Virus record (IMG/VR): IMGVR_UViG_3300034061_004170
Location: 1 to 39,619 of that record
Length of the DNA: 39,619 nucleotides
Strand: one strand, 5' to 3'
Source of the DNA: a virus
The first letter of the stretch is position 1; every line of letters starts with the position of its first letter. Shown here in pieces: positions 21,295 through 33,711 of the stretch. The translations under genes were made by a program, and so were the position numbers. The notes under the pieces are model-generated. The model was given only the letters and a program-made list of their open reading frames with translations. It was not told the DNA's origin and ran no database searches.

Positions 21295-21295
21295 C

Positions 21296-21613: not shown

Positions 21614-21638
21614 TAATTCTTTATTTATTTATAGGAGT

Positions 21639-21667: not shown

Positions 21668-21764
21668 ATCTAAACACGGCGTGTCGCATGTGAGTTATAC
21701 CACAAGACAAATGGTGCAAATCGGACATTGTCTCGGGCAACGACACTCCCGACCTCGTTGTTAA

Positions 21765-21868: not shown

Positions 21869-21882
21869 TGACATAGATCACA
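21825..21882 (+). promoter_or_regulatory. two CRP/GlxR-like half-matched sites fused to DnaA boxes
   Basis: CATGA-N6-TCACA occurs at 21825-21840 and 21867-21882. Each begins in the last bases of a DnaA box, giving a repeated composite TATCCACATGAC-x2-AGATCACA. The second site is centred about 76 bases upstream of the predicted start from the promoter at 21939. Confidence 0.5.
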
Positions 21883-21922
21883 AGACACAATGTCCGTTTT
21901 GTCCTACTTACTGGTCAGTAAA

Positions 21923-21944
21923 TGTCAGTGGTCGCTGTTATACT
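21923..21944 (+). promoter_or_regulatory. TGTCAG-type (RecA-NDp/PafBC-like) promoter of the first early operon
   Basis: TGTCAGTG, 8 bases, TATACT: an exact match to the consensus tTGTCRgtg-N8-TAnnnT as I remember it for mycobacterial RecA-independent DNA-damage promoters. CTG one base before the -10 adds an extended -10. A TGTCC box lies at 21891. Confidence 0.7.
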
Positions 21945-21959
21945 TCTAGTATAAAGAAA

Positions 21960-21980
21960 GTTAAATAAAGGTTATTTAAC
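21960..21980 (+). promoter_or_regulatory. 5'-UTR hairpin before the first early gene
   Basis: GTTAAATAA-AGG-TTATTTAAC, a perfect 9-bp stem with a 3-base loop, directly before the AGAAAGGA ribosome-binding site. It probably stabilises the leader or adjusts translation. Confidence 0.6.
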
Positions 21981-21992
21981 AGAAAGGACAAA

Positions 21993-22100
21993 ATGAAAGA
22001 TTTTGTTAAAAAGTTAGAATTAGAAAACTATCTTGATGAAAGTCAAGATGAGTTAAGTCTAAGACTAGATGAGTTAATTGCTCTTGGTTCATATAACTAA
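21993..22100 (+). CDS. 35-aa early microprotein
   Basis: An acidic helical peptide (MKDFVKKLELENYLDESQDE, then LSLRLDELIALGSYN). The Shine-Dalgarno sequence AGAAAGGA is well placed. First gene of the rightward early operon. Unknown function. Confidence 0.65.
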   Translation: MKDFVKKLELENYLDESQDELSLRLDELIALGSYN

Positions 22101-22113
22101 ATATAGAAAAAAT

Positions 22114-22182
22114 CCTAGTGAGCCTTACTAAAAAGTAAGCAAATAATCTAGGTCAAGGAAAAAGATAAACACAAGGTTTATC
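22114..22182 (+). promoter_or_regulatory. two intercistronic stem-loops
   Basis: The first has an outer stem CCTAG (22114-22118)/CTAGG (22148-22152) enclosing CTTACT (22124-22129)/AGTAAG (22134-22139). The second is GATAAAC-ACAAG-GTTTATC (22164-22182), perfect 7 bp. Both lie between the 35-aa and 57-aa genes, before the next AGAAAGGA site. They may be processing or translational control structures. Confidence 0.55.
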
Positions 22183-22203
22183 GCTTAAAGAAAGGAATTC
22201 AAA

Positions 22204-22377
22204 ATGAATTCACTAAAAAATAAAGTGTGTAAGCATACACCTAATAAAAATGCTATCTCTATCGTCAACGACGAAAGATTTACCTTCTGCGAGAATTGTG
22301 AGCAGAATATAACTTCTCACTATCGTGAGGATAATGACTTCATGTCTTATTGGACTTCTTGGAAGGTAGGTAAGTAA
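22204..22377 (+). CDS. 57-aa zinc-ribbon-like protein
   Basis: It has C9-x-H11 and C29-x2-C32 (FCENCEQ), a treble-clef-like layout, followed by an aromatic tail (FMSYWTSWKVGK). Shine-Dalgarno AGAAAGGA. It is followed without a gap by two further Cys-pair proteins, a microprotein family that may bind nucleic acid or host partners. Confidence 0.65.
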   Translation: MNSLKNKVCKHTPNKNAISIVNDERFTFCENCEQNITSHYREDNDFMSYWTSWKVGK

Positions 22378-22485
22378 ATGATAACTAAAAAATGTATATC
22401 ATGTAATGATACCGCTATGGTATCTAAAGTTTCTATCCCTGCTATTTGCGATAATTGTATCGCTAAGAATTGGAAGGTGTCCTAA
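22378..22485 (+). CDS. 35-aa zinc-ribbon microprotein
   Basis: Two C-x2-C knuckles (KKCISCND and AICDNCIAKNW) about 15 residues apart fit a minimal zinc ribbon. The ATG abuts the upstream stop, and its own stop overlaps the next ATG (TAATG). Confidence 0.65.
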   Translation: MITKKCISCNDTAMVSKVSIPAICDNCIAKNWKVS

Positions 22486-22586
22486 TGAATACCATAACAC
22501 TAAATTGTCGTTTATGCGATAATAAAGTTTCTAGTAATTTATTTGATGAGCAAGATATAATTACTTGCTCTAATTGTTGGGAGTAA
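22485..22586 (+). CDS. 33-aa zinc-ribbon microprotein
   Basis: Two C-x2-C pairs (LNCRLCDN and ITCSNCWE), as in its 35-aa neighbour, suggest duplication. It is translationally coupled through TAATG. Confidence 0.6.
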   Translation: MNTITLNCRLCDNKVSSNLFDEQDIITCSNCWE

Positions 22587-22587
22587 A

Positions 22588-22722
22588 ATGTTTAACAAAA
22601 TAAAAAATAAAGTAATTAGAATTCAAGAGTTGCGCCGTAGTAATGCGGCAACTCCAATTCCAAATAAAAAAAAATATTCTAGAAAAATAAAACATAAAAA
22701 TAAATTAGAACAAACGTTCTAA
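22588..22722 (+). CDS. 44-aa basic protein
   Basis: About one third Lys/Arg (MFNKIKNKVIRIQELRR, then KKKYSRKIKHKNK), so probably nucleic-acid binding. The last codons overlap the GAAC-N4-GTTC palindrome at 22708. Unknown family. Confidence 0.6.
   Translation: MFNKIKNKVIRIQELRRSNAATPIPNKKKYSRKIKHKNKLEQTF
22708..22719. promoter_or_regulatory. LexA-like palindrome, copy 1
   Basis: GAACAAACGTTC matches the Gram-positive LexA core GAAC-N4-GTTC. Extended, TTAGAAC/GTTCTAA is a perfect 7-bp inverted repeat, so it could instead be an RNA hairpin at the end of the operon. A second copy lies at 24072. Confidence 0.45.
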
Positions 22723-22735
22723 AAAACCCGAGGCG

Positions 22736-22850
22736 TTTTCCACAGGCTGTGGATAACTTACGATGTGTGGTTAAGATCACACAAAATCCTGTCCATATTT
22801 TGAGATTTACGGCGTGGCGATTTGCTTTCTTGGATTTTTTTTGGTAAACT
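22736..22850 (+). promoter_or_regulatory. regulatory cassette 1: DnaA boxes, CRP-like site, TGTCC box, promoter
   Basis: In order: TTTTCCACA (22736-22744) and an inverted perfect DnaA box TGTGGATAA (22748-22756); TGTGG-N6-TCACA (22766-22781); TGTCC (22790-22794); promoter TTGCTT (22822-22827), 17 bases, TAAACT (22845-22850). The CRP-like site is centred about 83.5 bases before the predicted start. Confidence 0.55.
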
Positions 22851-22887
22851 TACCTAGTAAGAAAATAAAGAAAGGAAGTGGCTAACA

Positions 22888-23088
22888 ATGGCTAACTTAT
22901 TTACAATCCCTCAATTACTGGTAGGACAAAACTACCGCAGTAATTCTATCTCTGGAGAAATTATCTCAGCAGAGAAATCTCCTCAACCAATTTGGTATGG
23001 AGAAAATACAGAAGCCTATTTAGTAGGCGTTGTTTCTAATACTGGTAAGTATTCTTACCGCACTTTAGCAGTTAAGGTGGGTGAATAA
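22888..23088 (+). CDS. 66-aa small beta protein, possible member of the SH3-like trio
   Basis: LLVGQNYRSNSISGEIISAEKS, then AYLVGVVSNTGKYSYRTLAVKV, resembles the pattern VGD-x-Y-x-S-x-ATGIIKEIVP of the 55-aa protein at 26127 and the 56-aa protein at 26896. The shared layout suggests a small beta-barrel (inference). ATG 22888 follows AAAGGAAG. Confidence 0.55.
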   Translation: MANLFTIPQLLVGQNYRSNSISGEIISAEKSPQPIWYGENTEAYLVGVVSNTGKYSYRTLAVKVGE

Positions 23089-23195
23089 TGTCTGATTACC
23101 TTAACTATCAAGATGAGGTCTATACTGACCTAGTCGCTGAGTATGGCGAGGGCATAACCCTTGCCTACCGTGAGGCAAATATCAAGGAGATGTGA
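23088..23195 (+). CDS. 35-aa acidic microprotein
   Basis: The peptide starts MSDYLNYQDEVYTDLVAEYG and ends LAYREANIKEM. The ATG overlaps the upstream stop (TAATG). The end of the gene overlaps a perfect TGTGA-N6-TCACA operator. Confidence 0.6.
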   Translation: MSDYLNYQDEVYTDLVAEYGEGITLAYREANIKEM

Positions 23196-23206
23196 GGCAA
23201 CTCACA
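23191..23206 (+). promoter_or_regulatory. CRP/GlxR-type operator (perfect palindromic arms)
   Basis: TGTGA-GGCAAC-TCACA. Its centre is about 64.5 bases upstream of the start predicted from the promoter at 23227-23256. Confidence 0.6.
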
Positions 23207-23226
23207 CTCCAACACGCCCCCTATAA

Positions 23227-23256
23227 TTGGAAAATGTCAGCGATAACTGATAGAAT
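23227..23256 (+). promoter_or_regulatory. TGTCAG-type promoter of the 23.3-24.0 kb operon
   Basis: TTGGAA (23227-23232), 18 bases, TAGAAT (23251-23256). The spacer carries TGTCAG (23235-23240) and CTG, at the same 16-base distance from the -10 as the other members. Confidence 0.7.
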
Positions 23257-23289
23257 TACTACTCAAACAAAAACGAAAGGTGGTCAGAA

Positions 23290-23472
23290 ATGACTTACAC
23301 TATAAATCTAGAAACCTACAATGGTGCTACTAAAAAAATAAACCTATCCACTAAAGGTCAGGTTGCTCAATTCATAAACACTTACCCTAATACTTTACCT
23401 GTTGGCGTATCTGTAAAAGTTGCTTGTGATGTGCTTGGTATTCGTGGCACACTAAGGGGCAAACAAAAATGA
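23290..23472 (+). CDS. 60-aa hypothetical protein
   Basis: MTYTINLETYNGATKKINL, then KGQVAQFINTYPNTLPVG and a basic C-terminus (GIRGTLRGKQK). Shine-Dalgarno GAAAGG. The stop overlaps the next start (ATGA). Looks like a small alpha/beta protein; family not recognised. Confidence 0.65.
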   Translation: MTYTINLETYNGATKKINLSTKGQVAQFINTYPNTLPVGVSVKVACDVLGIRGTLRGKQK

Positions 23473-23618
23473 TAAACTCTGTTATGTCTTTTGATTGTAA
23501 TGAGTGTTCAGGTTCAGGGTTAATCTTTTGGGGAGATAACCTTGACTACAATGTAGAAAAATGCGAGTGCGAAAATTTTGCCCTTGGAACTTTATTTACT
23601 AGCGGGGAGGCTGACTAA
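23469..23618 (+). CDS. 49-aa cysteine-pair protein
   Basis: C-x2-C in FDCNECSGSG and C-x-C in EKCECEN, with a GSG turn, resembles half of a DnaJ-type zinc finger. Coupled to both neighbours through ATGA and TAATG overlaps. Confidence 0.6.
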   Translation: MINSVMSFDCNECSGSGLIFWGDNLDYNVEKCECENFALGTLFTSGEAD

Positions 23619-23827
23619 TGAAAACAATTAAACACTACATAACACTAGAAACTGAAATTCTTAACGAAAACGATATAACTGCTAAGGCTCTTTTATCTTT
23701 ACCTAAAGAAACACAACAAATTAGACTAACTGAATTAGCCTATATTGCTTTATCTGAAACAATAGAAAAAGAGTTAATAAAGTTAAATAAAAACAATTCT
23801 TTTGCTGTCTTAAAGTTGGTTAAATAA
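23618..23827 (+). CDS. 69-aa hypothetical protein
   Basis: A mostly helical, Leu-rich protein (ALLSLPKETQQIRLTELAYI, then LSETIEKELIKLNK). No motif recognised. The stop overlaps the next start by one base. Confidence 0.65.
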   Translation: MKTIKHYITLETEILNENDITAKALLSLPKETQQIRLTELAYIALSETIEKELIKLNKNNSFAVLKLVK

Positions 23828-24039
23828 TGATGACTAGAAAATCTTATATCCAAACCGCAAACATCTTAAAAGGATTTGTAGATGAAATTCCACAAAATAC
23901 TTATGAGGATTTAGTTCAAGAATTTGCTGAGTGGTTTAAATCAGATAATGAAAACTTTGACTACGCAAGATTTGAGAAGGCTTGCGGAATTGATGAAATT
24001 GGTTTAATTCCTGTTGGTTCTGAAATGTTTAAAATATAA
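23827..24039 (+). CDS. 70-aa conserved phage protein
   Basis: The pattern YEDLVQEFAEWFKSDNENFD, then YARFEKACG, is one I recognise from short uncharacterised proteins of many actino- and cyanophages. Helical, acidic, no catalytic motif. Last gene of the operon; a covarying stem-loop follows 8 bases after the stop. Confidence 0.7.
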   Translation: MMTRKSYIQTANILKGFVDEIPQNTYEDLVQEFAEWFKSDNENFDYARFEKACGIDEIGLIPVGSEMFKI

Positions 24040-24046
24040 ATAAAAA

Positions 24047-24071
24047 TCCTGGACAAGATTTAAAACTGTCC
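24047..24071 (+). ncRNA. covarying stem-loop, copy A
   Basis: TCCT, stem GGACA, loop AGATTTAAAAC, stem TGTCC. One of five copies (others end at 26342, 27145, 27812, 28993) in which TCCT and TAAAAC-type loops are kept while stem bases change in pairs. Located just after an operon end. Confidence 0.6.
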
Positions 24072-24204
24072 GAACATTTGTTCTAAAAATCCTCGGGGGG
24101 TTTTCCACAGGTTATCCACAGGCTTTACGTGTGATTAAAAACACACCCCAGATTGTCCAGATTAAGGCGTCTAATTGGATTTTGTCAGTCGTATCTGATA
24201 GGAT
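24072..24204 (+). promoter_or_regulatory. regulatory cassette 2: LexA-like palindrome, DnaA boxes, CRP-like site, TGTCC box, TGTCAG promoter
   Basis: In order: GAACATTTGTTC (24072-24083); CCTCGGGGGG (24091-24100); TTTTCCACA (24101-24109); TTATCCACA (24112-24120); TGTGA-N6-ACACA (24130-24145); TGTCC (24154-24158); TTGGAT (24175-24180), 18 bases, TAGGAT (24199-24204), with TGTCAG at 24183. The element order matches cassette 1 at 22708-22850. Confidence 0.65.
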
Positions 24205-24227
24205 AAAGATATAACGAAAGGAAACAA

Positions 24228-24392
24228 ATGGGTAAAGTAAAAGAAGCACTAATGGATATATTAGAGCATGACCTATGCTATGGCTATGGTTGGTTATATT
24301 CAGGAAATAATGTAGACTTTGATAGTGAGGCTTGCGAGTGTAATCCTTATGCTATATCCGCTGACGAACTAATGGATTGGAAACTAAACTAA
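24228..24392 (+). CDS. 54-aa hypothetical protein
   Basis: It starts GKVKEALMDILEHDLCYGYG and has a C-x-C late (EACECNPYA). ATG 24228 follows CGAAAGGA. Stop and next start overlap as TAATG. Unknown function. Confidence 0.6.
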   Translation: MGKVKEALMDILEHDLCYGYGWLYSGNNVDFDSEACECNPYAISADELMDWKLN

Positions 24393-24601
24393 TGGAATAT
24401 ACTTATTCACTTACTACTTCATATGATGGAGAGTTAATAAATACCCTGCGAGTTAGCGATATGCTAGAAGCAGTTAGTGCTTGGGATAAATGCGTGGACT
24501 ATGGCTTTGCTAAAGAATACGCAACCTATAACTTGTCTGACCCAACAGGTAAGATGTATACTAAAACTTTCTACACCAACGGAGAGGTCGTAATTAAATA
24601 A
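24392..24601 (+). CDS. 69-aa hypothetical phage protein
   Basis: The start ATG 24392 is fixed by the TAATG overlap; an in-frame upstream TTG lies inside the previous gene. The sequence YTYSLTTSYDGELINTLRVS, then DMLEAVSAWDKCVDYG, is of the kind seen in small early proteins of other phages. Beta-alpha-beta layout; no catalytic motif. Confidence 0.65.
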   Translation: MEYTYSLTTSYDGELINTLRVSDMLEAVSAWDKCVDYGFAKEYATYNLSDPTGKMYTKTFYTNGEVVIK

Positions 24602-24888
24602 TGGGAAGCATAACAGCAATAGGTTTAGCAGATACAGCGCTAGACCTAGAAACACAATTAAAGTATCACTTGCAAGGTAATCATTATCCACCAATACCAA
24701 CAATAATGGTGCAACCTTGCATTGAGGCTATTGACGCATACTATGAGGAGGATTATTCTCGTAGAATAGAACTACCAGTTGTTGATGGCTTTCAGATTAG
24801 TTGGAAGGGCAACACTTGGACTACCGCCAGCGCATTGGTATCACACGCACACCTAGAGTGGTTTATTGAACCTAGTGATGAGGAATAA
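24601..24888 (+). CDS. 95-aa conserved phage protein
   Basis: HLQGNHYPPIPTIMVQPCIEA, then a motif RRIELPVVDG and a motif ALVSHAHLEWFI, is a pattern I recall from uncharacterised actinophage early proteins (PP-x2-P near the middle, a His-rich C-terminus). Function unknown. Coupled by TAATG. Confidence 0.65.
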   Translation: MGSITAIGLADTALDLETQLKYHLQGNHYPPIPTIMVQPCIEAIDAYYEEDYSRRIELPVVDGFQISWKGNTWTTASALVSHAHLEWFIEPSDEE

Positions 24889-24889
24889 A

Positions 24890-25129
24890 ATGATTGATTT
24901 AGAAAATGATGATACCATTCAAATTGTGGACTATGTTAAAGTTGATTTACTAACTTCAGGTCAATTAGAGATTGATGATTGTATTCTAATTGGCGATGAA
25001 GTTGTGTCTATTGTAGATATAGTCTCACTACCTGATGGATATACTTTAGAAATTGTAAATGATTTTGGTGAAAGAGAAATAATTGAAGTTGGTGAATACG
25101 ACCAATTTGATTTAATGATGTTACAGTAA
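24890..25129 (+). CDS. 79-aa acidic hypothetical protein
   Basis: ATG 24890, just after GAGGA and the previous stop, is chosen over an in-frame upstream TTG. A very acidic, beta-rich sequence (IQIVDYVKVDLLTSGQLEID, then DCILIGDEVVSIVDIVSLPD) suggests a small barrel, perhaps a DNA mimic or regulatory subunit (speculative). Confidence 0.6.
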   Translation: MIDLENDDTIQIVDYVKVDLLTSGQLEIDDCILIGDEVVSIVDIVSLPDGYTLEIVNDFGEREIIEVGEYDQFDLMMLQ

Positions 25130-25133
25130 GGGG

Positions 25134-25148
25134 CGCCCCGAGGGGGCG
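25134..25148. other. GC-rich hairpin after the 24.2-25.1 kb operon
   Basis: CGCCCC-GAG-GGGGCG, 6 bp with a 3-base loop and only ATTTG after it, so at best a weak terminator. Related CCYCGRGG strings occur at 22727, 24091, 27171 and 27822. Confidence 0.5.
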
Positions 25149-25178
25149 ATTTGTCCGATTTGTACTAATTAAGGGGAG

Positions 25179-25207
25179 TTGATATTTTTCCCATATTATG
25201 CTAGAAT
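25179..25207 (+). promoter_or_regulatory. promoter for a leaderless Gp88-like gene
   Basis: TTGATA (25179-25184), 17 bases, TAGAAT (25202-25207), then six bases to the ATG. The spacer begins TTTTTCCCAT, as in the promoter at 29151. A TGTCC box and TTTGTACTAATTAAG lie upstream at 25152-25173. Confidence 0.7.
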
Positions 25208-25213
25208 TTTTAT

Positions 25214-25942
25214 ATGACTACACCACAATTAAAAAGATCTAATGATAGAAAGGTTGCTAATCTTGTTACAAAAAATGGAAAGCAAGCCGCAATTGCCAAC
25301 ACCTTTGGATTACCTGCTGGAAAAAATTTCTCGTGCCCTGGTGCCACTAGTGTTTGTGAAAGCGTTTGCTACGCAGGAAGACTTGAAAAACTCTACAAAG
25401 CGGTAAAGGCTAATCTACTACACAATTGGGAATTACTTAAAGACGCAGATCAAAAAACTATGGAGGTTTTGTTATCTGCAATGATTGATGAATTTGTTAT
25501 TGATTGTAATAAAAAGAATGCACCTAAGTTATTTCGTATTCACTGGGATGGGGATTTCTTCTCTGATACCTATACCAACGCATGGCGCAATGTAATAACT
25601 AATTATCCTGATATACAGTTTTGGGTATACACTAGAGTGGAGGCTGCAGCCTTAATGCTTAAGGGTATACCTAATTTATCTTTATACTATTCTACAGATA
25701 GTGAGAATAAGCAGATAGGTGTTAGTCTTAAGAAAGATCATGGGATACGTCTTGCATACCTTGCCAAAAATTTTGCAATTGGGCAGGCAGATATGAAAGA
25801 GTTATTCAACCGCCCTGGTGCTAGGTGTCCTGAGAATCTAAAGGCTATCCCCCTTATCTCAAATGCTGGAAGCGCTTGCGTTTCATGCTCACTTTGTATA
25901 TACTCTAAGAGCGATGTCGTATTCTCATCATCTAAAAAGTAG
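25214..25942 (+). CDS. Gp88-like protein with Cys clusters (242 aa)
   Basis: It resembles the mycobacteriophage family I know as gene product 88. Visible: CPGATSVCESVCYAG (Cys41, Cys48, Cys52, the CX6CX3C cluster), FRIHWDGDFFSDTY near 107-120, and a C-terminal cluster Cys205, Cys222, Cys225, Cys228 (ACVSCSLC). Two cysteine clusters suggest Fe-S or zinc binding, perhaps radical-SAM-like chemistry, but no substrate is known. The ATG sits 6 bases after the -10 and there is no Shine-Dalgarno sequence, so the mRNA is probably leaderless. Confidence 0.75.
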   Translation: MTTPQLKRSNDRKVANLVTKNGKQAAIANTFGLPAGKNFSCPGATSVCESVCYAGRLEKLYKAVKANLLHNWELLKDADQKTMEVLLSAMIDEFVIDCNKKNAPKLFRIHWDGDFFSDTYTNAWRNVITNYPDIQFWVYTRVEAAALMLKGIPNLSLYYSTDSENKQIGVSLKKDHGIRLAYLAKNFAIGQADMKELFNRPGARCPENLKAIPLISNAGSACVSCSLCIYSKSDVVFSSSKK

Positions 25943-25949
25943 GAGATAT

Positions 25950-26015
25950 ATGGGTGAAATCCTTGTATTATTCTTTATATTATTATACATAATGTTTGCG
26001 GGTATGGGGCATTAA
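25950..26015 (+). CDS. 21-aa single-span membrane peptide
   Basis: MGEILVLFFILLYIMFAGMG is almost wholly hydrophobic. A strong TAGGAGAT site precedes it and it follows the Gp88-like gene by 7 bases, so it is probably translated from that mRNA. Confidence 0.55.
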   Translation: MGEILVLFFILLYIMFAGMGH

Positions 26016-26031
26016 TGTGATGTATCTCACA
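26016..26031 (+). promoter_or_regulatory. CRP/GlxR-type operator (perfect arms)
   Basis: TGTGA-TGTATC-TCACA, centred about 74.5 bases before the start predicted from the promoter at 26063-26091. A flanking ATCTCA-x-TGAGA inverted repeat is shared with the 27183 site. Confidence 0.65.
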
Positions 26032-26062
26032 TCTCAAATAGTGAGATTATTAGAAATATAAC

Positions 26063-26091
26063 TTGTATTTTTAGCCAAAAAATGTTAGACT
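26063..26091 (+). promoter_or_regulatory. promoter of the 55-aa SH3-like gene
   Basis: TTGTAT (26063-26068), 17 bases, TAGACT (26086-26091). The leader carries AAGGAG before the ATG. Confidence 0.65.
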
Positions 26092-26126
26092 TATACAGTA
26101 AGCAAAAACCAACAAGAAGGAGAAAC

Positions 26127-26294
26127 ATGTCAGTAGCAAACGCAATATACAAAGTAGGGGACACCTACACAAGCCAAAAGTCCAAAGCAACAGGCATTAT
26201 CAAAGAAATTGTGCCACAAGCCAATGGTAATGTTCGTGTTAAGTTAGATGTTGCTGGCGCAACACGCTGGACTACTTGGACAGCAAAGTCATAA
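26127..26294 (+). CDS. 55-aa small beta protein (SH3-like family)
   Basis: ATG 26127 follows AAGGAG. The sequence IYKVGDTYTSQKSKATGIIK, then EIVPQANGNVRVKLDVAG, pairs with the 56-aa protein at 26896 (YQLGDLFTTSKTGVTGRIVK). About 55 residues, basic, no cysteine: probably a five-strand barrel, a common nucleic-acid- or RNA-polymerase-binding fold. Followed by a paired stem-loop element also found after its paralog. Confidence 0.65.
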   Translation: MSVANAIYKVGDTYTSQKSKATGIIKEIVPQANGNVRVKLDVAGATRWTTWTAKS

Positions 26295-26296
26295 TC

Positions 26297-26342
26297 TTAG
26301 CCTAGTGGCTAAATGTCCTGAGCATGACTACTAAAACTGCTC
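26297..26342 (+). ncRNA. two-hairpin element including covarying stem-loop copy B
   Basis: TTAGCC-TAGT-GGCTAA (26297-26312), then TCCT, GAGCA (26320-26324), loop TGACTACTAAAAC, TGCTC (26338-26342). The same two-hairpin order follows the paralogous gene at 27084-27145. Confidence 0.6.
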
Positions 26343-26390
26343 AATTTAATACCCCCATCAAACCCACCAACAGAAACGGAAACCATCACA

Positions 26391-26813
26391 ATGGCAAGAA
26401 CTAAACCTATCAGCGTTAAAATCGCTACTGCTAAGGTTATTACAGCCTTAGAAAACAGGTTAGCAGAACTAGAGGCTAACTATAAAACACAAGACGAAAA
26501 CGAAGCAAAGTATCAAGCCTCACTAGACGCTTGGAAAAAAGAAATGTTTGCTTTTGCTATCGCTAATGTTGATAAGGCAGAAAACCTTAGAACTAACTTC
26601 CGCCAATGGACAGGAAATCTTAATGTAGATTTTGACCTAACAGTTAAGGAAGGGCAGTTCCCTGCTGAGCCTGAGCGTAAGTTTGAGCAACTTCATGCTC
26701 ATACCTATCGTGAGCAGAAAGAGGAAATGGAAAACGCTATCCGTATCCTTAAAATGACAGATGAGGAAACAGTTAGCACTAGCACATATAACGCTATTGC
26801 TCGTTATCTCTAA
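26391..26813 (+). CDS. 140-aa coiled-coil-like early protein
   Basis: Mainly helical and charged (VITALENRLAELEANYK, then a motif YREQKEEMENAIRILK), with a central short beta part (WTGNLNVDFDLTVKEG). No catalytic motif recognised. The ribosome site is weak (ACGGAAACC). No promoter was found in the 100 bases before it, so it may depend on the 26063 promoter. Confidence 0.65.
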   Translation: MARTKPISVKIATAKVITALENRLAELEANYKTQDENEAKYQASLDAWKKEMFAFAIANVDKAENLRTNFRQWTGNLNVDFDLTVKEGQFPAEPERKFEQLHAHTYREQKEEMENAIRILKMTDEETVSTSTYNAIARYL

Positions 26814-26820
26814 TAGTATT

Positions 26821-26859
26821 GGGGGGGTTCTTGACTTGCCCCCCCAAAAATGTTATACT
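26821..26859 (+). promoter_or_regulatory. G7/C7 hairpin enclosing a promoter -35
   Basis: GGGGGGG (26821-26827) pairs with CCCCCCC (26839-26845). The 11-base loop contains TTGACT (26831-26836), the -35 of a promoter with 17-base spacing to TATACT (26854-26859). GTTATA-CTTAA-TATAAC (26852-26868) overlaps the -10. Confidence 0.65.
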
Positions 26860-26895
26860 TAATATAACAAACCACCACAACAGAAAAGGAAAATC

Positions 26896-27066
26896 ATGAC
26901 ACTAGGCGGATACACATACCAACTAGGTGATTTATTCACCACCAGTAAAACAGGCGTTACAGGTAGAATTGTAAAGTTCGCACCTATTAACTCTAAACTT
27001 ACTAGAGTATCCTTACAGTTAGCAAACGGCTCTCGTCGTCTTGCTATGGTAAGCACAACTAAATAA
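26896..27066 (+). CDS. 56-aa small beta protein (SH3-like family)
   Basis: MTLGGYTYQLGDLFTTSKTG, then VTGRIVKFAP and VSLQLANGSRRLAMVS, is a paralog of the 26127 product. AAAAGGA precedes ATG 26896. It has its own promoter. Confidence 0.65.
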   Translation: MTLGGYTYQLGDLFTTSKTGVTGRIVKFAPINSKLTRVSLQLANGSRRLAMVSTTK

Positions 27067-27083
27067 TTTATCTCTGATAAGCA

Positions 27084-27145
27084 CTTGGCTTAATTGCTAA
27101 GTTATTCCTGAGATAAGACACCTGAGCATGTGTTCTAAACTGCTC
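27084..27145 (+). ncRNA. two-hairpin element including covarying stem-loop copy C
   Basis: CTTGGC-TTAATT-GCTAAG (27084-27101), then CCT, GAGCA (27124-27128), loop TGTGTTCTAAAC, TGCTC (27141-27145). It follows the 56-aa gene as copy B follows its paralog. Confidence 0.6.
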
Positions 27146-27170
27146 ATCTTTTAATTGCCCCTGCAAAAAT

Positions 27171-27259
27171 CCCCCGAGGGGGCGTGATCTAAATCACATC
27201 TCATTATGTGAGACTAATTAAGAACTGCATTTGCATTTCCACAACCTTGATGATATTAT
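27171..27259 (+). promoter_or_regulatory. regulatory cassette 3: CCCCCGAGGGGG hairpin, CRP-like operator, promoter
   Basis: CCCCC-GA-GGGGG (27171-27182) is followed at once by CGTGA-TCTAAA-TCACA (27183-27198), then TTGCAT (27231-27236), 17 bases, TATTAT (27254-27259). The operator centre is about 75.5 bases before the predicted start. Confidence 0.6.
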
Positions 27260-27283
27260 TGTATTAACAGAAAAGGAACCCCT

Positions 27284-27745
27284 ATGAGCGATGTACTAAC
27301 CCAAGATCAACTATCCGTACCGTATAACCCCAACCTACTTGTTACGTACAAGTATGTAAGTGAAACCTTACCATCTGATGTTCCAACATTTATGACTGAT
27401 AAGGTTACTGAGATTGAATACGAGTTACACAGAGCAAGATCATACGCTGACGCAGCACATGAGCGTCGTAAAGACATTGCGTGGCTTGAAGATCAGATCA
27501 GTGAATGGTATAACCCTAACTATGATAAAGAGGATGTGCTAAGAGAATTAGCAAACCACTTTAATATTAATCCTACTAAGCAGGTTAGTGTTTATGGAAC
27601 TGTTTCATTCAGCGGTACAGTTAATGTTCCAGTAGCAGAACTTGAAGACTTTGATCTAAGCAATGTAACGATTGATGTTGAACTAAGTTCATATGACTAT
27701 GAGGCGGACCTAACCGTAGACGACGTCTCACTGGAAGAGAACTAA
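27284..27745 (+). CDS. 153-aa hypothetical early protein
   Basis: The N-terminal half is helical with EYELHRARSYADAAHERRKD and a motif IAWLEDQISEWY. The C-terminal half is acidic beta sequence (VSVYGTVSFSGTVNVPVAEL). No cysteine. The Shine-Dalgarno sequence AAAAGGA fits ATG 27284. Family not recognised. Confidence 0.65.
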   Translation: MSDVLTQDQLSVPYNPNLLVTYKYVSETLPSDVPTFMTDKVTEIEYELHRARSYADAAHERRKDIAWLEDQISEWYNPNYDKEDVLRELANHFNINPTKQVSVYGTVSFSGTVNVPVAELEDFDLSNVTIDVELSSYDYEADLTVDDVSLEEN

Positions 27746-27787
27746 GCGCTGCAGGTACCGTTTAAATTTGATAGGGGGCTATCAACA

Positions 27788-27812
27788 TCCTGGCCATGAT
27801 GTAAAACTGGCC
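27788..27812 (+). ncRNA. covarying stem-loop, copy D
   Basis: TCCT, GGCCA (27792-27796), loop TGATGTAAAAC, TGGCC (27808-27812), then CACAAAAATCCTCGGGGGG. The middle stem pair is C-G here, A-T in copy A and G-C in B, C and E. Confidence 0.6.
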
Positions 27813-27838
27813 CACAAAAATCCTCGGGGGGCCTGAAA

Positions 27839-27917
27839 TGTCCGTTTTGTACCAATTAAGAAGATTAAACCATTTTTCCCAATCCTAGTTGACATTGTCA
27901 GTCCTGACTGCTAAACT
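27839..27917 (+). promoter_or_regulatory. TGTCC box and TGTCAG-type promoter of the DUF932 gene
   Basis: TGTCCGTTTTGTACCAATTAAG-type repeat (27839-27860), a TTTTTCCCA string, then TTGACA (27889-27894), 17 bases, TAAACT (27912-27917). TGTCAG at 27896 and CTG occupy the spacer. Confidence 0.7.
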
Positions 27918-27943
27918 TAGTTAAAACAACCGAAAGGATAAAA

Positions 27944-28960
27944 ATGGCTCATGATTTAGAAACTCAAAATGGCGTAGCAAGTTTTGCATCATTTAGAGAG
28001 CCTGCATGGCACAATCTTGGTACTGTATTTGATACTGAGAAAAATACAAGTGAAATGCTTGTTGCTGCTAATCTTAATAATTGGAATGTTAGACTAGAGG
28101 ATTTAGAAATCCCATCTAGTTTAGTATCTGACAAACAATATCAATATGTTGTTCGTACAAATCCTACTGATAAATCTCAAACTGATGTTTTGGGAATTGT
28201 TGGTCAGCGTTACGTTCCACTACAAAATGAGGATTTATTCGCATTTGGCGATAACATTCTTGATGGTGGTGGGCGTTGGGAAACCGCTGGTTCAATTAGT
28301 GGTGGGCGTGTAGTATTTGGCTCTCTTGCATTAGAGCGTGAAACTGTGTTAGACCCTAATGGCGTGGCAGATGTTGTAAAAACTTATTTACTCATCAACA
28401 CATCACATGATGGTTCTATTGCAATTCAAGCAAGCATAACACCTGTTCGTGTTGTGTGCGCTAATACTCTTAATGTTGCACTCAATCGTACTAAGAAAAA
28501 AGATGGCGTAAAGCAATCTTTCAAAATCCGTCATACCCAAACCGCTGAGGGCAAAATTGCAGTTGCTCGTCAGGCACTAGGCATGGCTAATTCTTACATG
28601 GACGAATTTGATAAGATGGCTCATGCTATGATACAAAAAGAAATATCAGCGAAAGACTTCAATGATATTATTCTTGCTGCTTATCCTAAGCCTGATAAAG
28701 ATACTAAGGGTGCAGTAAAGAAATGGGAAAACAAGGTAGATATGATTAACGATATCTATACTGGTGAGTTTAACGGAATGATTAGTGGAAATGCTTGGGG
28801 TGCGTTCAATGCACTAACTGAGCGTTTAGACTGGTATCGTTCTGCTCGTAGTGCAAATGGCGAAAGCATGTTTGCTGCTGCTTCTGGATTTGACCCTGCT
28901 ACTAATGCAGAAAAAAATCGTTTGCTAAGTATTGTTCAAAATACTTTACAAATAGTTTAA
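27944..28960 (+). CDS. DUF932 phage/plasmid-like protein (338 aa)
   Basis: It matches the family I know as DUF932 (phage/plasmid-like TIGR03299): FASFREPAWHNLGTVFD near the start, YQYVVRTNPTDK, LGIVGQRYVPLQNEDLFAFG (about 85-104), a motif SHDGSIAIQASITPVRVVC, NTLNVAL and a motif FKIRHTQTAEGKI. Length is typical. The family is common near replication and anti-defence genes of phages and plasmids, but its biochemical function is unknown to me. Shine-Dalgarno GAAAGGA supports the start. Confidence 0.85.
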   Translation: MAHDLETQNGVASFASFREPAWHNLGTVFDTEKNTSEMLVAANLNNWNVRLEDLEIPSSLVSDKQYQYVVRTNPTDKSQTDVLGIVGQRYVPLQNEDLFAFGDNILDGGGRWETAGSISGGRVVFGSLALERETVLDPNGVADVVKTYLLINTSHDGSIAIQASITPVRVVCANTLNVALNRTKKKDGVKQSFKIRHTQTAEGKIAVARQALGMANSYMDEFDKMAHAMIQKEISAKDFNDIILAAYPKPDKDTKGAVKKWENKVDMINDIYTGEFNGMISGNAWGAFNALTERLDWYRSARSANGESMFAAASGFDPATNAEKNRLLSIVQNTLQIV

Positions 28961-28968
28961 CAATAAAA

Positions 28969-28993
28969 TCCTGAGCAAGATTTAAAACTGCTC
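28969..28993 (+). ncRNA. covarying stem-loop, copy E
   Basis: TCCT, GAGCA (28973-28977), loop AGATTTAAAAC (identical to copy A), TGCTC (28989-28993). It ends four bases before the tRNA-Asp, so a role as a transcript-processing site is possible. Confidence 0.6.
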
Positions 28994-28997
28994 CGCT

Positions 28998-29071
28998 GGT
29001 CCCATAGATCAATTGGTTAGATCGTTACCCTGTCACGGTAAAGGCTACGGGTTCAAGTCCCGTTGGGATCG
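28998..29071 (+). tRNA. tRNA-Asp (GTC)
   Basis: A full cloverleaf: acceptor GGTCCCA/TGGGATC, D-stem GATC/GATC, anticodon stem TTACC/GGTAA with loop CTGTCAC (anticodon GTC), T-arm ACGGG-TTCAAGT-CCCGT. CCA is not encoded. It follows the DUF932 gene. Confidence 0.93.
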
Positions 29072-29083
29072 CAGGTGCCCGAG

Positions 29084-29101
29084 TATAACATTTTTGTTAT
29101 A
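29084..29101. repeat. TATAAC-N6-GTTATA inverted repeat after the tRNA
   Basis: TATAAC (29084-29089) and GTTATA (29096-29101) with loop ATTTTT. It could be a weak terminator for the tRNA or a site for the same regulator as the 17063-17154 array. Confidence 0.45.
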
Positions 29102-29150
29102 ATTGTATTACGTTGAGATGATATTTTTCCCATTTTCTTATTAAGGATAG

Positions 29151-29179
29151 TTGACATTTTTCCCATTTTGTAGGATAAT
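29151..29179 (+). promoter_or_regulatory. promoter for a leaderless 47-aa gene
   Basis: TTGACA (29151-29156), 17 bases, GATAAT (29174-29179), six bases to the ATG. The spacer TTTTTCCCAT matches the promoter at 25179. A partial duplicate (GATATTTTTCCCAT) lies about 33 bases upstream. Confidence 0.7.
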
Positions 29180-29185
29180 TAATTC

Positions 29186-29329
29186 ATGACCGCAATTAAC
29201 CAACTAATACAAACCATCTATCAGGATAACTCAGAACACTTAGACTTTATGGATAGCATGGCTAGTGGAGATTGTGATTGTCACATACATACCACATTAA
29301 ATACCATTGTCAAGTATGGGGAGGAATGA
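29186..29329 (+). CDS. 47-aa leaderless early protein
   Basis: TAINQLIQTIYQDNSEHLDF, then MDSMASGDCDCHIHTT, with a C-x-C-x-H-x-H cluster that could bind metal. The stop overlaps the next ATG. The pattern is familiar from small uncharacterised actinophage proteins. Confidence 0.65.
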   Translation: MTAINQLIQTIYQDNSEHLDFMDSMASGDCDCHIHTTLNTIVKYGEE

Positions 29330-29505
29330 TGTTAGGTTATACATATAAGGATATACAGGAGTTTGGCAATAGTTTAACTTGGGCTATTGATACCGCCAAA
29401 AACCAGGGGGATGAACAAAACTATAAACAATTACTAATAGTATGGGACTTCTTTGAAGGTTTGTTAGCAGAAGGGTATATAGATGAAAACACTTACTATG
29501 GATAA
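29326..29505 (+). CDS. 59-aa hypothetical protein
   Basis: Starts at ATGATG (29326 or 29329) after GAGGA. A helical, aromatic sequence (IQEFGNSLTWAIDTAKNQGD, then QLLIVWDFFEGLLAEG). No motif recognised. Overlaps both neighbours. Confidence 0.6.
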   Translation: MMLGYTYKDIQEFGNSLTWAIDTAKNQGDEQNYKQLLIVWDFFEGLLAEGYIDENTYYG

Positions 29506-29665
29506 GACCTGGACTAAGTATGAGTATCTATGTACTGATTGTGATGCATTGACTGAGATAACTACCTTGAAAAATTTAGATGATCACAGGGGCTGGTGTT
29601 CTTGTGGATCTGCTAACATTATTAGGATAAATAAACTTAATGTGACAGAGGTCACACACCAATAA
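29483..29665 (+). CDS. 60-aa zinc-ribbon protein
   Basis: C-x2-C (LCTDCDAL) and C-x-C (GWCSCGSANI), about 20 residues apart, give a short zinc ribbon. ATG 29483 follows AGAAGGG. The final codons overlap a perfect TGTGA-N6-TCACA operator. Confidence 0.65.
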   Translation: MKTLTMDKTWTKYEYLCTDCDALTEITTLKNLDDHRGWCSCGSANIIRINKLNVTEVTHQ

Positions 29666-29695
29666 CTTGACATTGCTACTTCATTAATCTAAAAT
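29641..29695 (+). promoter_or_regulatory. CRP/GlxR-type operator and promoter of the 29.7-31.3 kb operon
   Basis: TGTGA-CAGAGG-TCACA (29641-29656) followed by TTGACA (29667-29672), 17 bases, TAAAAT (29690-29695). The operator is only 10 bases from the -35 (centre about -53.5), closer than the others. Confidence 0.65.
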
Positions 29696-29727
29696 TAGTA
29701 TTAAGACACTAGAGAAAGAGACCCACA

Positions 29728-30291
29728 TTGCATACACTACATTATATAGCAGTTGAAGCAGATAGCAAACAAGAAGCATTTGATAAGGTTGTCGTATCCT
29801 TATCACCAAACGAAGACGGATATCGCCTAGCAGACTGGTCAGATTGGCATGTCGTAGGTGGGGGAAGGTGGAGCACTAATGCAAATAAAAAAAGCGAAAA
29901 CAACCTTATGGGGGGTTATAACGATGACCCTACTGATGTGTTGGGCTTTTCTGAAGATAAGGAAAAATTCCAAGAAGCGCTAGTCAGTGTAGGCAAATGG
30001 AAATCACAGGCCATGAACAGGGCAATCAAAGAGTTCAAGCCTGATAAGTTTATTAGTGATATGGTTGACTATGCCTCAGAGGGTGGTAGGTCAGAGTATA
30101 ACGGTGACACCATGATGTCTGCTTATACTATGAAAGAAACAGCAACAATGCTAATGGGTGGTTGGACACCTGATAGTGGGCTTTACGACCTTGATGAAAA
30201 TATTGCTGAAGCAACCTATCTTAAAGAGCGCCTTGACAAACCTGAGCAAGCCGTGAGACAATATCTAGTACCTGTAGATTTCCACTTCTAA
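29728..30291 (+). CDS. 187-aa conserved phage protein (TTG start)
   Basis: WSDWHVVGGGRWST near residues 37-50 resembles a D-W-x-V-GGRW signature I recall from uncharacterised actinophage proteins. The N-terminus HTLHYIAVEADSKQEAFD is ferredoxin-fold-like, and the C-terminus ends VRQYLVPVDFHF. The TTG start at 29728 gives the complete first strand; the AGAGAAAGAG upstream is a weak site. First gene of a five-gene operon. Function unknown. Confidence 0.65.
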   Translation: MHTLHYIAVEADSKQEAFDKVVVSLSPNEDGYRLADWSDWHVVGGGRWSTNANKKSENNLMGGYNDDPTDVLGFSEDKEKFQEALVSVGKWKSQAMNRAIKEFKPDKFISDMVDYASEGGRSEYNGDTMMSAYTMKETATMLMGGWTPDSGLYDLDENIAEATYLKERLDKPEQAVRQYLVPVDFHF

Positions 30292-30299
30292 GGAGACCC

Positions 30300-30758
30300 A
30301 TGAACGAACTTATAGAACTTACAGAGGAAGAGTGGTTTGATACCTTCAAGCCATTGCCAAACCTTATAGACCCTGACGCCTCATTTAATGATGGTGAGAA
30401 TGGCTATATGTTTGAAACATATGGTAAAGAGTTAGACTTTGTCAAAGCCCAAGACCCTGATAGGATATGGACTTATTGTGATGGAGATGTTGACGGTACC
30501 TATATATTTCAGGGTATGCGTATAGTTAATAGGATTGGGTACTTTGTAACTACCGTGCCCTTTGATGGTAGTAAGGACTATCAGATACAAATCAGTAGCG
30601 AAGATGTTTACGAATGCTCTAACTGTGGTGAGATGTGGGAAGATGAAATGGCTTCTCTACATTATGACAAGTTTGAGGATTTGGAAAAATGCGCTGGCTG
30701 TGCTACAGTAGAGGAACTTAAGGAACTAGAAGAAATGGAGAACCACACTCTTGGCTAA
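30300..30758 (+). CDS. 152-aa protein with C-terminal zinc ribbon
   Basis: The N-terminal 100 residues are alpha/beta with RIWTYCDGDVDGTYIFQGMR. The C-terminus has VYECSNCGEMWED and a motif KCAGCATVEEL, two C-x2-C knuckles forming a ribbon. AAGGAG precedes the ATG. It sits in a five-gene coupled operon. Confidence 0.65.
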   Translation: MNELIELTEEEWFDTFKPLPNLIDPDASFNDGENGYMFETYGKELDFVKAQDPDRIWTYCDGDVDGTYIFQGMRIVNRIGYFVTTVPFDGSKDYQIQISSEDVYECSNCGEMWEDEMASLHYDKFEDLEKCAGCATVEELKELEEMENHTLG

Positions 30759-30909
30759 ATGGGAAATAGAAGTAATCTTTGAACCAACAGGCGATTACAT
30801 GAACTTTGTGTATGAGACTGACACTGAAGACGAAGACAGCATTTTTGACGAGGTAGCAAACCAACTATCAATCGTACCATTTCTAGTAGAAAAGAACGAG
30901 GAAGAGTAA
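30751..30909 (+). CDS. 52-aa acidic protein (TTG start)
   Basis: AKWEIEVIFEPTGDYMNFVYE, then ETDTEDEDSIFDEVANQL. The TTG at 30751 overlaps the previous stop by eight bases, and the stop overlaps the next ATG (TAATG). A small beta-alpha protein; function unknown. Confidence 0.6.
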   Translation: MAKWEIEVIFEPTGDYMNFVYETDTEDEDSIFDEVANQLSIVPFLVEKNEEE

Positions 30910-31280
30910 TGGGAGCACGTTGCACATTTGTATTTAAACAATCAGAGGACCTTGGTGTAGCGCTGTACAGCCATTGGGGCGAAGACAGTATGTATGCAGA
31001 CCTAGCGCAGGCCCTGCAGCATGCAGCGGTACGTAAAGGGGACACTGAATACTACGTCCGTATGGCTATCAGTTACTTGATCCAAGACTCCATCTTGGAG
31101 GAAACAGGGTTTGGTATCTATGCATGCAATCCTAATGATCTGGGGTTTGCGGACCATCCAATATTAATTGATCTTACAGATAATACTATCAGTCATGATG
31201 GGGTAGACCACAAAGACATTGATAGTTTTATTAATTATAATTTGCCCAGCAGTGTCCTTTCCACTGTGGGGGCCTCATAA
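30909..31280 (+). CDS. 123-aa conserved actinophage-type protein
   Basis: It starts GARCTFVFKQSEDLGVALYS, then HWGEDSMYADLAQALQHAAV and a motif TEYYVRMAISYLI, a pattern I recall from uncharacterised early proteins of many actinobacteriophages. Coupled by TAATG, and followed by the strong terminator at 31314. Confidence 0.7.
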   Translation: MGARCTFVFKQSEDLGVALYSHWGEDSMYADLAQALQHAAVRKGDTEYYVRMAISYLIQDSILEETGFGIYACNPNDLGFADHPILIDLTDNTISHDGVDHKDIDSFINYNLPSSVLSTVGAS

Positions 31281-31313
31281 GGCAGAGGTAGGGTCACCTC
31301 TTGCTAAAGATAG

Positions 31314-31358
31314 GGGGAGAGCGGGTTTGTGGTGGGCTTGCTCTCCCCACACTTTTTT
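31314..31358 (+). terminator. strong intrinsic terminator
   Basis: GGGGAGAGC (31314-31322) pairs with GCTCTCCCC (31340-31348), 9 bp, followed by ACACTTTTTT. It ends the 29.7-31.3 kb operon. Its downstream arm overlaps the next promoter's -35. Confidence 0.9.
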
Positions 31359-31366
31359 GATAGAAT
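31338..31366 (+). promoter_or_regulatory. promoter overlapping the terminator, leaderless start
   Basis: TTGCTC (31338-31343), 17 bases, TAGAAT (31361-31366), six bases to ATG 31373. Confidence 0.6.
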
Positions 31367-31372
31367 TGGGAT

Positions 31373-31603
31373 ATGGGGTTTATGCGTAGGTCTATTAGGC
31401 TGGGAATAAGTAAAGAGGAAAAGGTTGCTGGTAGAGTTATTACTCTCCTCTCTGACCTGACCCTTGACTTAGAAGCCATAGGATTTTATTTAGCAAAAAC
31501 ATCTCCACATATTATTTATTCAAGGGCTAATGAAGTATTAGAAGCCATGCAGTATAATAAAGAGGTTGATGAATTAGATAGGGGTATGTATAATGGCAGG
31601 TAA
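31373..31603 (+). CDS. 76-aa conserved early protein (leaderless)
   Basis: FMRRSIRLGISKEEKVAGRV, then a motif LLSDLTLDLEAIGFYLA, is a pattern I recall from small actinophage proteins (RR, then DL-x-LDLE-x-G-YLA). Helical, no cysteine. The ATG is exactly 7 bases after the -10, so initiation is probably leaderless. Confidence 0.65.
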   Translation: MGFMRRSIRLGISKEEKVAGRVITLLSDLTLDLEAIGFYLAKTSPHIIYSRANEVLEAMQYNKEVDELDRGMYNGR

Positions 31604-31856
31604 TACTTTTGAAAATAAGATAACTATTCTTGCTGAGTTATGGATGAACTATCGTGATGATGAGGACTTGCAAGATTTTTTAGACTATAACGATTTAGGT
31701 TTGCCGTTAGCATATCTTTTAATGAACGAGATTGTTCTGCCAACAAGTCAGTCAGAGATTTATATTAACGAAACCTATGATTTATTAATTGCTTCTCTTA
31801 CTGTTGAGGATAGAGAGTGGCAAAGTCTTGACGGGTTGCTTAACAACCAGGAGTAG
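31593..31856 (+). CDS. 87-aa acidic helical protein
   Basis: NKITILAELWMNYRDDEDLQ, then DFLDYNDLGLPLAYLLMNEI. The ATG lies inside the end of the previous gene (11-base overlap). Function unknown. It is the last gene before the CAAACC repeat region. Confidence 0.65.
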   Translation: MAGNTFENKITILAELWMNYRDDEDLQDFLDYNDLGLPLAYLLMNEIVLPTSQSEIYINETYDLLIASLTVEDREWQSLDGLLNNQE

Positions 31857-32276
31857 CCCTGCCCCCTCGGGTAAACTATACCAAACCACCAAACCATTTT
31901 ACGAAAAGACATTAAGAACCTTTCCAAAAAAATCCCAGATCGTGGGACATTACGTAATCTGTAGAATTTTCCAGATTCATACCAAACCTTCAAACCTTCC
32001 TATCTCAAACCTTCAAACCTTTATATCTGCCAAACCTTTATATCCAGAAGATATGGTTTGTATACTACTGGGAGTATTGGTATATCTTTTTATCCCCGCC
32101 GTTTTTGCGTCCCTGCGGGGCGCCAAGTCCTAGTACTATTAGACATTACGAAGCGGGAATTTAAATTGCAAATTATTTAAAACTTTTACCATAGTTATCA
32201 AACCTTTCTAGATTTTTTGCTGGTGTTTTAAAAGATTTTGCTACATTTTTGTGGCATTTTTTTAGGCTATAAAGGT

Positions 32277-32305
32277 TTGACAAACCATGGTATTGGGGGT
32301 ATAAT
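32277..32305 (+). promoter_or_regulatory. consensus promoter inside the CAAACC region
   Basis: TTGACA (32277-32282), 17 bases, TATAAT (32300-32305): both hexamers perfect. The -35 is embedded in the palindrome GGTTTG-A-CAAACC, so whatever binds the repeat would compete with RNA polymerase. Confidence 0.7.
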
Positions 32306-32307
32306 GC

Positions 32308-32433
32308 ATGCCAGATATGCGGGATAAGAAGGTTTGGAAGGTTTGGGGATGGAAGGTTTGGCCGCCAGAGGATTACGACGCCATCTATAAAATCGCTCAA
32401 TCCCCCACTATGCTCCACTTTCCTCCCTTTTAA
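32308..32433 (+). CDS. candidate 38-41-aa Trp-rich peptide
   Basis: Directly downstream of the consensus promoter. ATGs at 32308 and 32317 open a frame whose middle (KKVWKVWGWKVWPPEDYD) is encoded by the AAGGTTTGG repeats. The start predicted from the -10 (about 32312) favours ATG 32317. No ribosome-binding site. The promoter is clear but coding is uncertain, since the repeat itself creates the sequence. Confidence 0.35.
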   Translation: MPDMRDKKVWKVWGWKVWPPEDYDAIYKIAQSPTMLHFPPF

Positions 32434-32683
32434 CTACAAATAAAAAATATCAGTAAGATTTATTTTGCTTATCAAACCTCCTAAACGGTATCAGATTAGC
32501 CTTCCAAGCCTTAAATTAGCGGGTATCAAACCATCGCCCTGGCTCCATATTGTCCATATCAAACCAGAGTTATTGGACACATGGTCAAACCTTTATATCT
32601 GGCTATCTGGCATATCAGGCTATAGGGTTTGAAAGGTTTGTATATATAAGGTTTGTTATTACACTAGGGATTATGGGTACTTC

Positions 32684-32712
32684 TTGCTATTCCCGCCGAT
32701 TTTTGGTATGAT
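32684..32712 (+). promoter_or_regulatory. promoter for the leaderless 49-aa gene
   Basis: TTGCTA (32684-32689), 17 bases, TATGAT (32707-32712), six bases to ATG 32719. Confidence 0.6.
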
Positions 32713-32718
32713 TAATAT

Positions 32719-32868
32719 ATGATACATACAAACCTTACTTGGGATGACGGGGATATATGGAAAGGCTGGACATATAGCCAAACCAAGAATCGTTACTACT
32801 TTGATGACATAGGCGATGAGTCTTTAATAGAACTTTGGTCACAGCCATTTTTGAGGCAGGCGGAGTAA
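32719..32868 (+). CDS. 49-aa Trp/Tyr-rich protein (leaderless)
   Basis: IHTNLTWDDGDIWKGWTYSQ, then a motif NRYYFDDIGDESLIELW. Beta-rich and acidic, with no Shine-Dalgarno sequence but perfect leaderless spacing. It contains two of the CAAACC copies. Function unknown. Confidence 0.55.
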   Translation: MIHTNLTWDDGDIWKGWTYSQTKNRYYFDDIGDESLIELWSQPFLRQAE

Positions 32869-33003
32869 AAGATACTAACCACTAGTGCCCTCTTAGGGCA
32901 TGGGGAGGTTTGTTATTTCTATTTTGCGCCGAACCCTTATTTGCTAGATATGATATGATTAGAATATAAAAAAACAAAAAAATGACTTTAGAACGGAAAT
33001 TAT

Positions 33004-33711
33004 ATGTTTAAAAAACAACCAATTATTAAATATGAGTCATCAATAGATTACATAGAGAACTCGCTCTCACCAGCAAGAAATTTTGTTCCAGAATGGTATA
33101 AAAAAATACCAAGAAATAAAACTGGAAAGATTTATGACAATGAAAAAGGTTTTACTAAAACCGTAAAAGTCTGTGTGCCTTTTTTAGATGCATTTACTAG
33201 CGGATATATGATTACAACAAATTATGATATATATATAAAAAATAATAACGGGGCGCCATATTTAGTTGGCATGAATGGAATTCCAGAAGAACAAATTCCT
33301 AGGTGGCGTGAGAATTTATCAGACGAAAATATAGTTCCAACGGGCTGCTATCCCTACGAATATACCTGGAATTATTGTATTTCTTATACTGTGCCTCCAG
33401 GATACAGTTTTTTGGCTACTCATCCTCTTAACAGACACGATCTTCCCTTTACTACGTTAACTGGCATTGTTGATGGCGGTCTTGTTATGCAACATAATGG
33501 AAATTTTCCCTTTTTTATTAAAAAAGATTTTGAAGGAATTATTCCTCAAGGAACTCCAATAATACAAATAATACCATTTCGCCAAGAAAAATGGAAATCT
33601 AAAAAACAAATAGGACTTGTAGCAGAAGGACAAAAACATGGCTATGCATCAGCAGCAAAATTAATTGGTTGGTATAAAAATACTTTTTGGACAAAAAAAG
33701 AATATAACTAA
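33004..33711 (+). CDS. DUF6065-like protein, copy 2 (235 aa)
   Basis: Paralog of the minus-strand protein at 11708. Shared: FVPEWYKKIP near the N-terminus, TVKVCVPFLDAFTSGYMI (about 57-74), VPPGYSFLATHPLNR, GIVDGG, FEGIIPQGTPIIQIIPFRQE and a C-terminal FWTKKEYN. The region between the GYMI and PPGY blocks differs and is slightly longer. As in copy 1, motif order resembles dUTPase-like folds without a clear catalytic set. -10-like boxes lie at 32949-32965, and a 9-codon upstream frame at 32982 overlaps the ATG. It converges with a zinc-ribbon gene (4-base overlap). Confidence 0.7.
   Translation: MFKKQPIIKYESSIDYIENSLSPARNFVPEWYKKIPRNKTGKIYDNEKGFTKTVKVCVPFLDAFTSGYMITTNYDIYIKNNNGAPYLVGMNGIPEEQIPRWRENLSDENIVPTGCYPYEYTWNYCISYTVPPGYSFLATHPLNRHDLPFTTLTGIVDGGLVMQHNGNFPFFIKKDFEGIIPQGTPIIQIIPFRQEKWKSKKQIGLVAEGQKHGYASAAKLIGWYKNTFWTKKEYN

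Follow-up and report, generated by a model that had tools for sequence, protein, structure and literature searches.

The element considered here is a repeat tract at positions 31861-32912 of a complete IMG/VR virus record (IMGVR_UViG_3300034061_004170; 39,619 bp, hereafter the window). As described in an earlier annotation of this DNA (the sequence-only reading), the tract is largely non-coding: genes stop at 31856 and restart at 33004, with short open reading frames (ORFs) in the gap, e.g. at 32309-32434 and 32721-32870. The hexamer CAAACC/GGTTTG has exactly 24 starts in the tract, on both strands, out of 72 in the window, just as had been counted. The earlier figure of about one expected by chance also holds, in that 1000 dinucleotide shuffles of the tract average 0.72 hexamers, with 4 at most; when the whole window is shuffled (300 shuffles), the best 1052-bp stretch averages 3.2 hexamers, with a maximum of 6. 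The tract is the densest cluster among all hexamers of the window, and the density of CAAACC/GGTTTG outside it is also raised, more mildly. A weaker second group of about ten in 1.3 kb, partly within an ORF, is seen at 19280-20606.

Seven CAAACC boxes (31882-32036, minus strand) form the upstream array and are followed by a single GGTTTG box (32055-32060, plus strand) and by the ATTACGA (32145-32151, plus strand) of a second repeated element, of consensus ATTACGAW with TTCCC about 22 bp on, which is nearly always found on the plus strand. The perfect promoter of the sequence-only reading, TTGACA-17-TATAAT (32277-32305, plus strand), is indeed present, as the sole TTGACA-(16 to 18)-TATAAT of the window, and so is the palindromic, operator-like pair GGTTTGACAAACC over its -35 (32274-32286). 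Three GGTTTG boxes with spacings of 9 and 15 (32331-32360, plus strand), lying just inside what we argue below to be a predicted genome end, then lead up to a conserved core at that end, GATTACGACGCC ... CTATGCTCCACTTTCCTCCC ... TCAGTAAGATTT (32371-32462, plus strand). Outside that end are four CAAACC boxes (32473-32591, minus strand) and another three GGTTTG boxes with the same spacings of 9 and 15 (32626-32655, plus strand), upstream of a second promoter-like site, TTGCTA-17-TATGAT (32684-32712, plus strand), with CCCGCCG in its spacer. The extended copy that had been said to recur does so as TCAAACCTTTATATCTG, 17 nt, at 32013 and 32585.

Eighty relatives were retrieved via the DUF932 gene of the window (27944-28960, plus strand), and 62 of the 67 loci reaching the place in question carry at least 8 hexamers per 1050 bp there, usually about 4 kb downstream of the DUF932 gene start. 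The five exceptions are one group (L052-L055 and L073), and the L052 group retains a core-like segment near 15920-16040; a promoter first listed in L052 near 14432 was discarded because it sits within coding sequence. In most array-bearing relatives no other hexamer of the region is as enriched as CAAACC, and two long relatives with overlapping contig ends (104 and 114 kb) each show one clear cluster per genome. Scanning with an independent core 17-mer added further phages, for a total of 100 dereplicated cores, selected for ATTACG and CAGTAA within 60-125 nt of each other and TTGACA upstream. The presence of these three motifs is by construction, because they were used as selection criteria, but the narrow spacing actually found (CAGTAA 78-83 nt on from ATTACG), the -10 and the hexamers were not built in. 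Hexamer density is conserved beside 97 of the 100 cores, 83 have the exact TTGACA-17-TATAAT, and of the 88 promoters that could be recognised, 81 are overlapped by a hexamer. Alignment shows 1-nt indels between sites in close relatives that break the frame, so a reading frame is not the cause of the repeats. About a hundred distinct uncultured phages share the tract as a conserved, non-coding control region. A distant blastn search with it against phages gave no match, nor did a search of bacterial genomes for the exact promoter pattern. An RNA hairpin after the promoter was tried and rejected: single sequences fold, but RNAalifold gives no consensus pair, and the covariation score is equalled by 56 of 500 shuffles.

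Direct box spacings cluster at 8-9, 15-17, 23-25 and 31-33, which is an 8-bp lattice and not helical phasing. Convergent pairs are mainly 7 bp apart, as in the palindrome over the -35; the position 8 bp upstream of a box is GGTTTG or GATAT/GATAG, and flanking bases widen the site to about GATAnnAAGGTTTGRnA. Boxes are oriented as CAAACC upstream of the promoter and as GGTTTG between promoter and core, and GGTTTG is found upstream of 11 of 17 distinct downstream promoters with a CCGCC spacer. A multi-site repressor array had been among the roles first suggested for the tract. The conserved density, the 8-bp lattice and the promoter overlap give good support to an array of many protein-binding sites on a strong promoter; that the boxes are operators at the junction promoter we infer.

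The place of the tract in the genome is indicated by comparison with Streptomyces phages of the Stanwilliamsviridae, to which the terminase (about 54% identity) and the DUF932 gene are closest. These phages have direct terminal repeats (DTRs) of 11-12 kb (PMC5764925; PMC10690885), and the genome ends of BE1 were mapped from read starts (PMC5764925). A GP88-family early gene (25214-25942, plus strand) and the DUF932 early gene are syntenic with, and 51% and 53% identical to, genes in the same order within the DTR of Streptomyces phage Bmoc. In Bmoc the non-coding gap after these genes spans the DTR boundary and carries four TTACGA elements, and a 17-mer from this gap, GATTTATCTGTGGATAA, is also the closing sequence of the core in L070 and other relatives. 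Across six Streptomyces genomes of the BE cluster (Bmoc, Yaboi, Karimac, Jay2Jay, Wofford and Daubenski), the deposited boundary lies directly before CATTACACAC (four genomes), CATTACATAC (Daubenski) or AATTACACAC (Bmoc), with ATTACA directly after it, DnaA boxes 60-105 nt beyond it and, in the 750 bp that precede it, 3-6 TTACGA elements on the same strand. Here, too, the DnaA box TGTGGATAA follows within 200 nt of the core in 61 of 100 cases, and ATTAC at the boundary, DnaA boxes beyond and TTACGA before are found for the phage group as a whole. The opposite DTR end in these genomes reads TGTATG|ATACATGC, then TAGTGCGCCC 34 nt on; TGTATG|ATAYRT with TAGTGnGCnC matches it in 31 loci. One of these is the window, at 20743, where GTATG|ATATGTG is followed after 33 nt by TAGTGAGCACAC (20738-20787, plus strand; predicted cut 20742|20743).

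On the homology of both ends to the deposited ends of these six genomes, the window would hold a DTR of 11,628 bp (20743-32370), collapsed to one copy in the contig; predicted lengths across the group, 10.7-13.4 kb, fit those of Bmoc (11.06 kb) and Yaboi (12.43 kb). There is thus a strong case that the tract is one boundary of an 11.6-kb DTR, positionally and structurally homologous to the Stanwilliamsviridae DTR end, and by analogy the cut is predicted to the base, at 32370|32371. With the tract at the DTR end, the array would therefore surround the predicted terminase cut, mostly on the DTR side, and its repeats would lie around the genome end as well as a very strong promoter. Within the tract, 14 of the 24 hexamers fall inside the predicted DTR; around the 100 cores 1266 of 1559 lie on the DTR side and 293 beyond, thinning sharply at the cut, and the GGTTTG-oriented sites are most frequent in the last 50 bp ahead of it (243 of the 633 between -900 and +700). 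The clustering of contig ends was not decisive.

The reading that we favor, and consider probable though far from certain, is that the tract is a genome-end, DTR-boundary control region in a large Stanwilliamsviridae-like group, its hexamers being protein boxes that act mainly as operators. Terminase would cut concatemers at 32370|32371, and a DNA-binding protein would load on the boxes side by side, cooperatively, along the 8-bp lattice, so covering several hundred bp at the end of the DTR together with the very strong junction promoter. That promoter would point across the cut into the unique region, and the boxes would mainly serve to switch it and, in some genomes, also those that follow.

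Several observations weigh against this proposal. A GGTTTG array is absent from the DTR boundary of the Streptomyces genomes, and the function of the array therefore cannot be borrowed from them. The core of the window reads GATTAC(G), one base different from the commoner CATTAC, and has no adjacent exact DnaA boxes. The physical ends of these phages are predictions from homology. In three of the 100 cores there are no more than 3 hexamers, so the core does not strictly need the array. In Streptomyces phage Francob (L334) the DTR is only 764 bp, and the gap with TTACGA elements and DnaA boxes is away from the genome end; judging by this phage, the control gap may exist apart from a genome end. 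The Francob gap itself is 1.8 kb of non-coding DNA (121027-122797 of its record) with TCGTAA and DnaA boxes.

A further difficulty is that no binding protein was found among the candidates, and none of 11 records has a hit over cut-off to RHH_1 (PF01402). The small helical protein encoded at 31373-31603 (three-helix model, predicted local distance difference test score (pLDDT) 83; no PDB fold match) first seemed to track the array, at 59 of 62 loci with it vs 0 of 5 without, but a more sensitive search found it in the array-poor L231, L270, L275 and L327 as well. The putative TerS, the gene adjoining TerL with a helix-turn-helix-like segment and a match to a PHROG of unknown function, is rejected as the binder, its segment being nearly unchanged in the array-less L231. 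Adjoining the tract, 31593-31856 encodes a small conserved acidic protein with an NDLGLPLAY motif and no known family, present in 58 of 62 loci that bear the array and in array-poor ones too.

Packaging is a function that the boxes could serve equally well. If the terminase small subunit or a helper bound them and so placed the cut, as at repeated cos or pac sites, one would understand the excess of hexamers on the DTR side and the manner in which GGTTTG-oriented sites reach the predicted cut and stop there. The hexamer-free group (one record tested) moreover has a diverged putative TerS and TerL (42% and 58%, vs 76-100% and 77-100% in the others). The near-identical TerS segment of the array-less L231 argues the other way, as does the continuation of sites beyond the cut and at later promoters, and TerS itself is a putative assignment, from its place beside TerL and from that segment. 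We regard a packaging role as unlikely.

The array might even be a dedicated genome-end control centre, in which one protein would polymerise over the terminal several hundred bp and couple junction transcription to DNA entry or packaging, with a box specificity that varies by lineage (GGTTTG, TGTTTG or none) around an unchanging cut site. In a few lineages the boxes are altered (L233: CAAACA, 21 copies) or gone (L231) with the core kept, as expected for shifting specificity of a DNA-binding protein. We would put this version at roughly one chance in a handful.

Considerably less probable is a T5-like injection-stop signal. Were the right end to enter first, the tract would be the inner boundary of the first-entering DTR, and transfer would pause there until early proteins had acted. 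Non-coding repeats, inverted repeats, palindromes and DnaA boxes beside early genes at the predicted boundary, in the tract and its relatives, are what the T5 signal has beside the early genes of its long terminal repeat, but the resemblance is one of anatomy, and the argument depends on the order of DNA entry. A replication origin with iterons, also among the earlier suggestions, seems to us similarly improbable: DnaA boxes do follow most cores, the core has an AT-rich stretch and each genome has one cluster, but the skew check revealed no GC-skew switch at the tract, the nearest exact DnaA boxes in the window are 8-11 kb away, and other early intergenic regions contain such boxes as well. 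A partition site and a recombination hot spot found no backing, in that six long relatives lack a ParA-type AAA_31 (PF13614), a virulent lifestyle is presumed for the related BE phages (PMC10690885), and no evidence of a hot spot was found. As a separate observation, exact DnaA boxes lie at 21778, 21860, 22748 and 24112, early-region positions close to the second predicted DTR end, and early-region boxes recur in relatives at several places, often as close pairs.

As kinds of element, genome ends, DTRs, tandem-box operators and injection-stop signals are all familiar. MetJ boxes are tandem-box operators of ribbon-helix-helix (RHH) proteins. Like these, and like the centromeric parS heptads of pSM19035 (PMC9499535), the boxes of the tract are short and asymmetric, set on a fixed lattice of 7-8 bp in both direct and inverted orientation, and placed over promoters; unlike them, they follow an 8-bp lattice with gaps and come with no RHH_1 or ParA gene that we could find. 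The stoperators of cluster A mycobacteriophages (PMC9283540) are likewise many asymmetric sites for probably one protein, also at promoters, but are scattered genome-wide, whereas here there is one dense cluster per genome; unlike the temperate cluster A phages, moreover, 6 records have no tyrosine integrase (PF00589). The closest likeness is to the Stanwilliamsviridae DTR end, in the synteny of GP88 and DUF932 (tested in Bmoc), the ATTAC at the boundary, the TTACGA elements before it and DnaA boxes beyond, the DTR length and the second end. The differences are that the Streptomyces phages lack the array, have oppositely oriented genes on their unique side and share only about 50% protein identity. 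The literature searched held no account of a dense 8-bp-lattice array at a predicted DTR end in an undescribed phage group.

For a large uncultured phage group, then, genome ends and a DTR of 11-13 kb can be predicted from sequence alone, with exact sites, and one place would unite a conserved repeat array, a consensus-perfect promoter and a predicted packaging cut. The coordination of entry, early transcription and end formation in long-DTR phages thereby becomes testable outside T5. Elsewhere in the window, 17661-19238 is a tryptophan halogenase-like phage gene, and 11708-12385 and 33004-33711 encode two proteins that resemble each other in size and style of sequence and may be paralogues belonging to separate cassettes.
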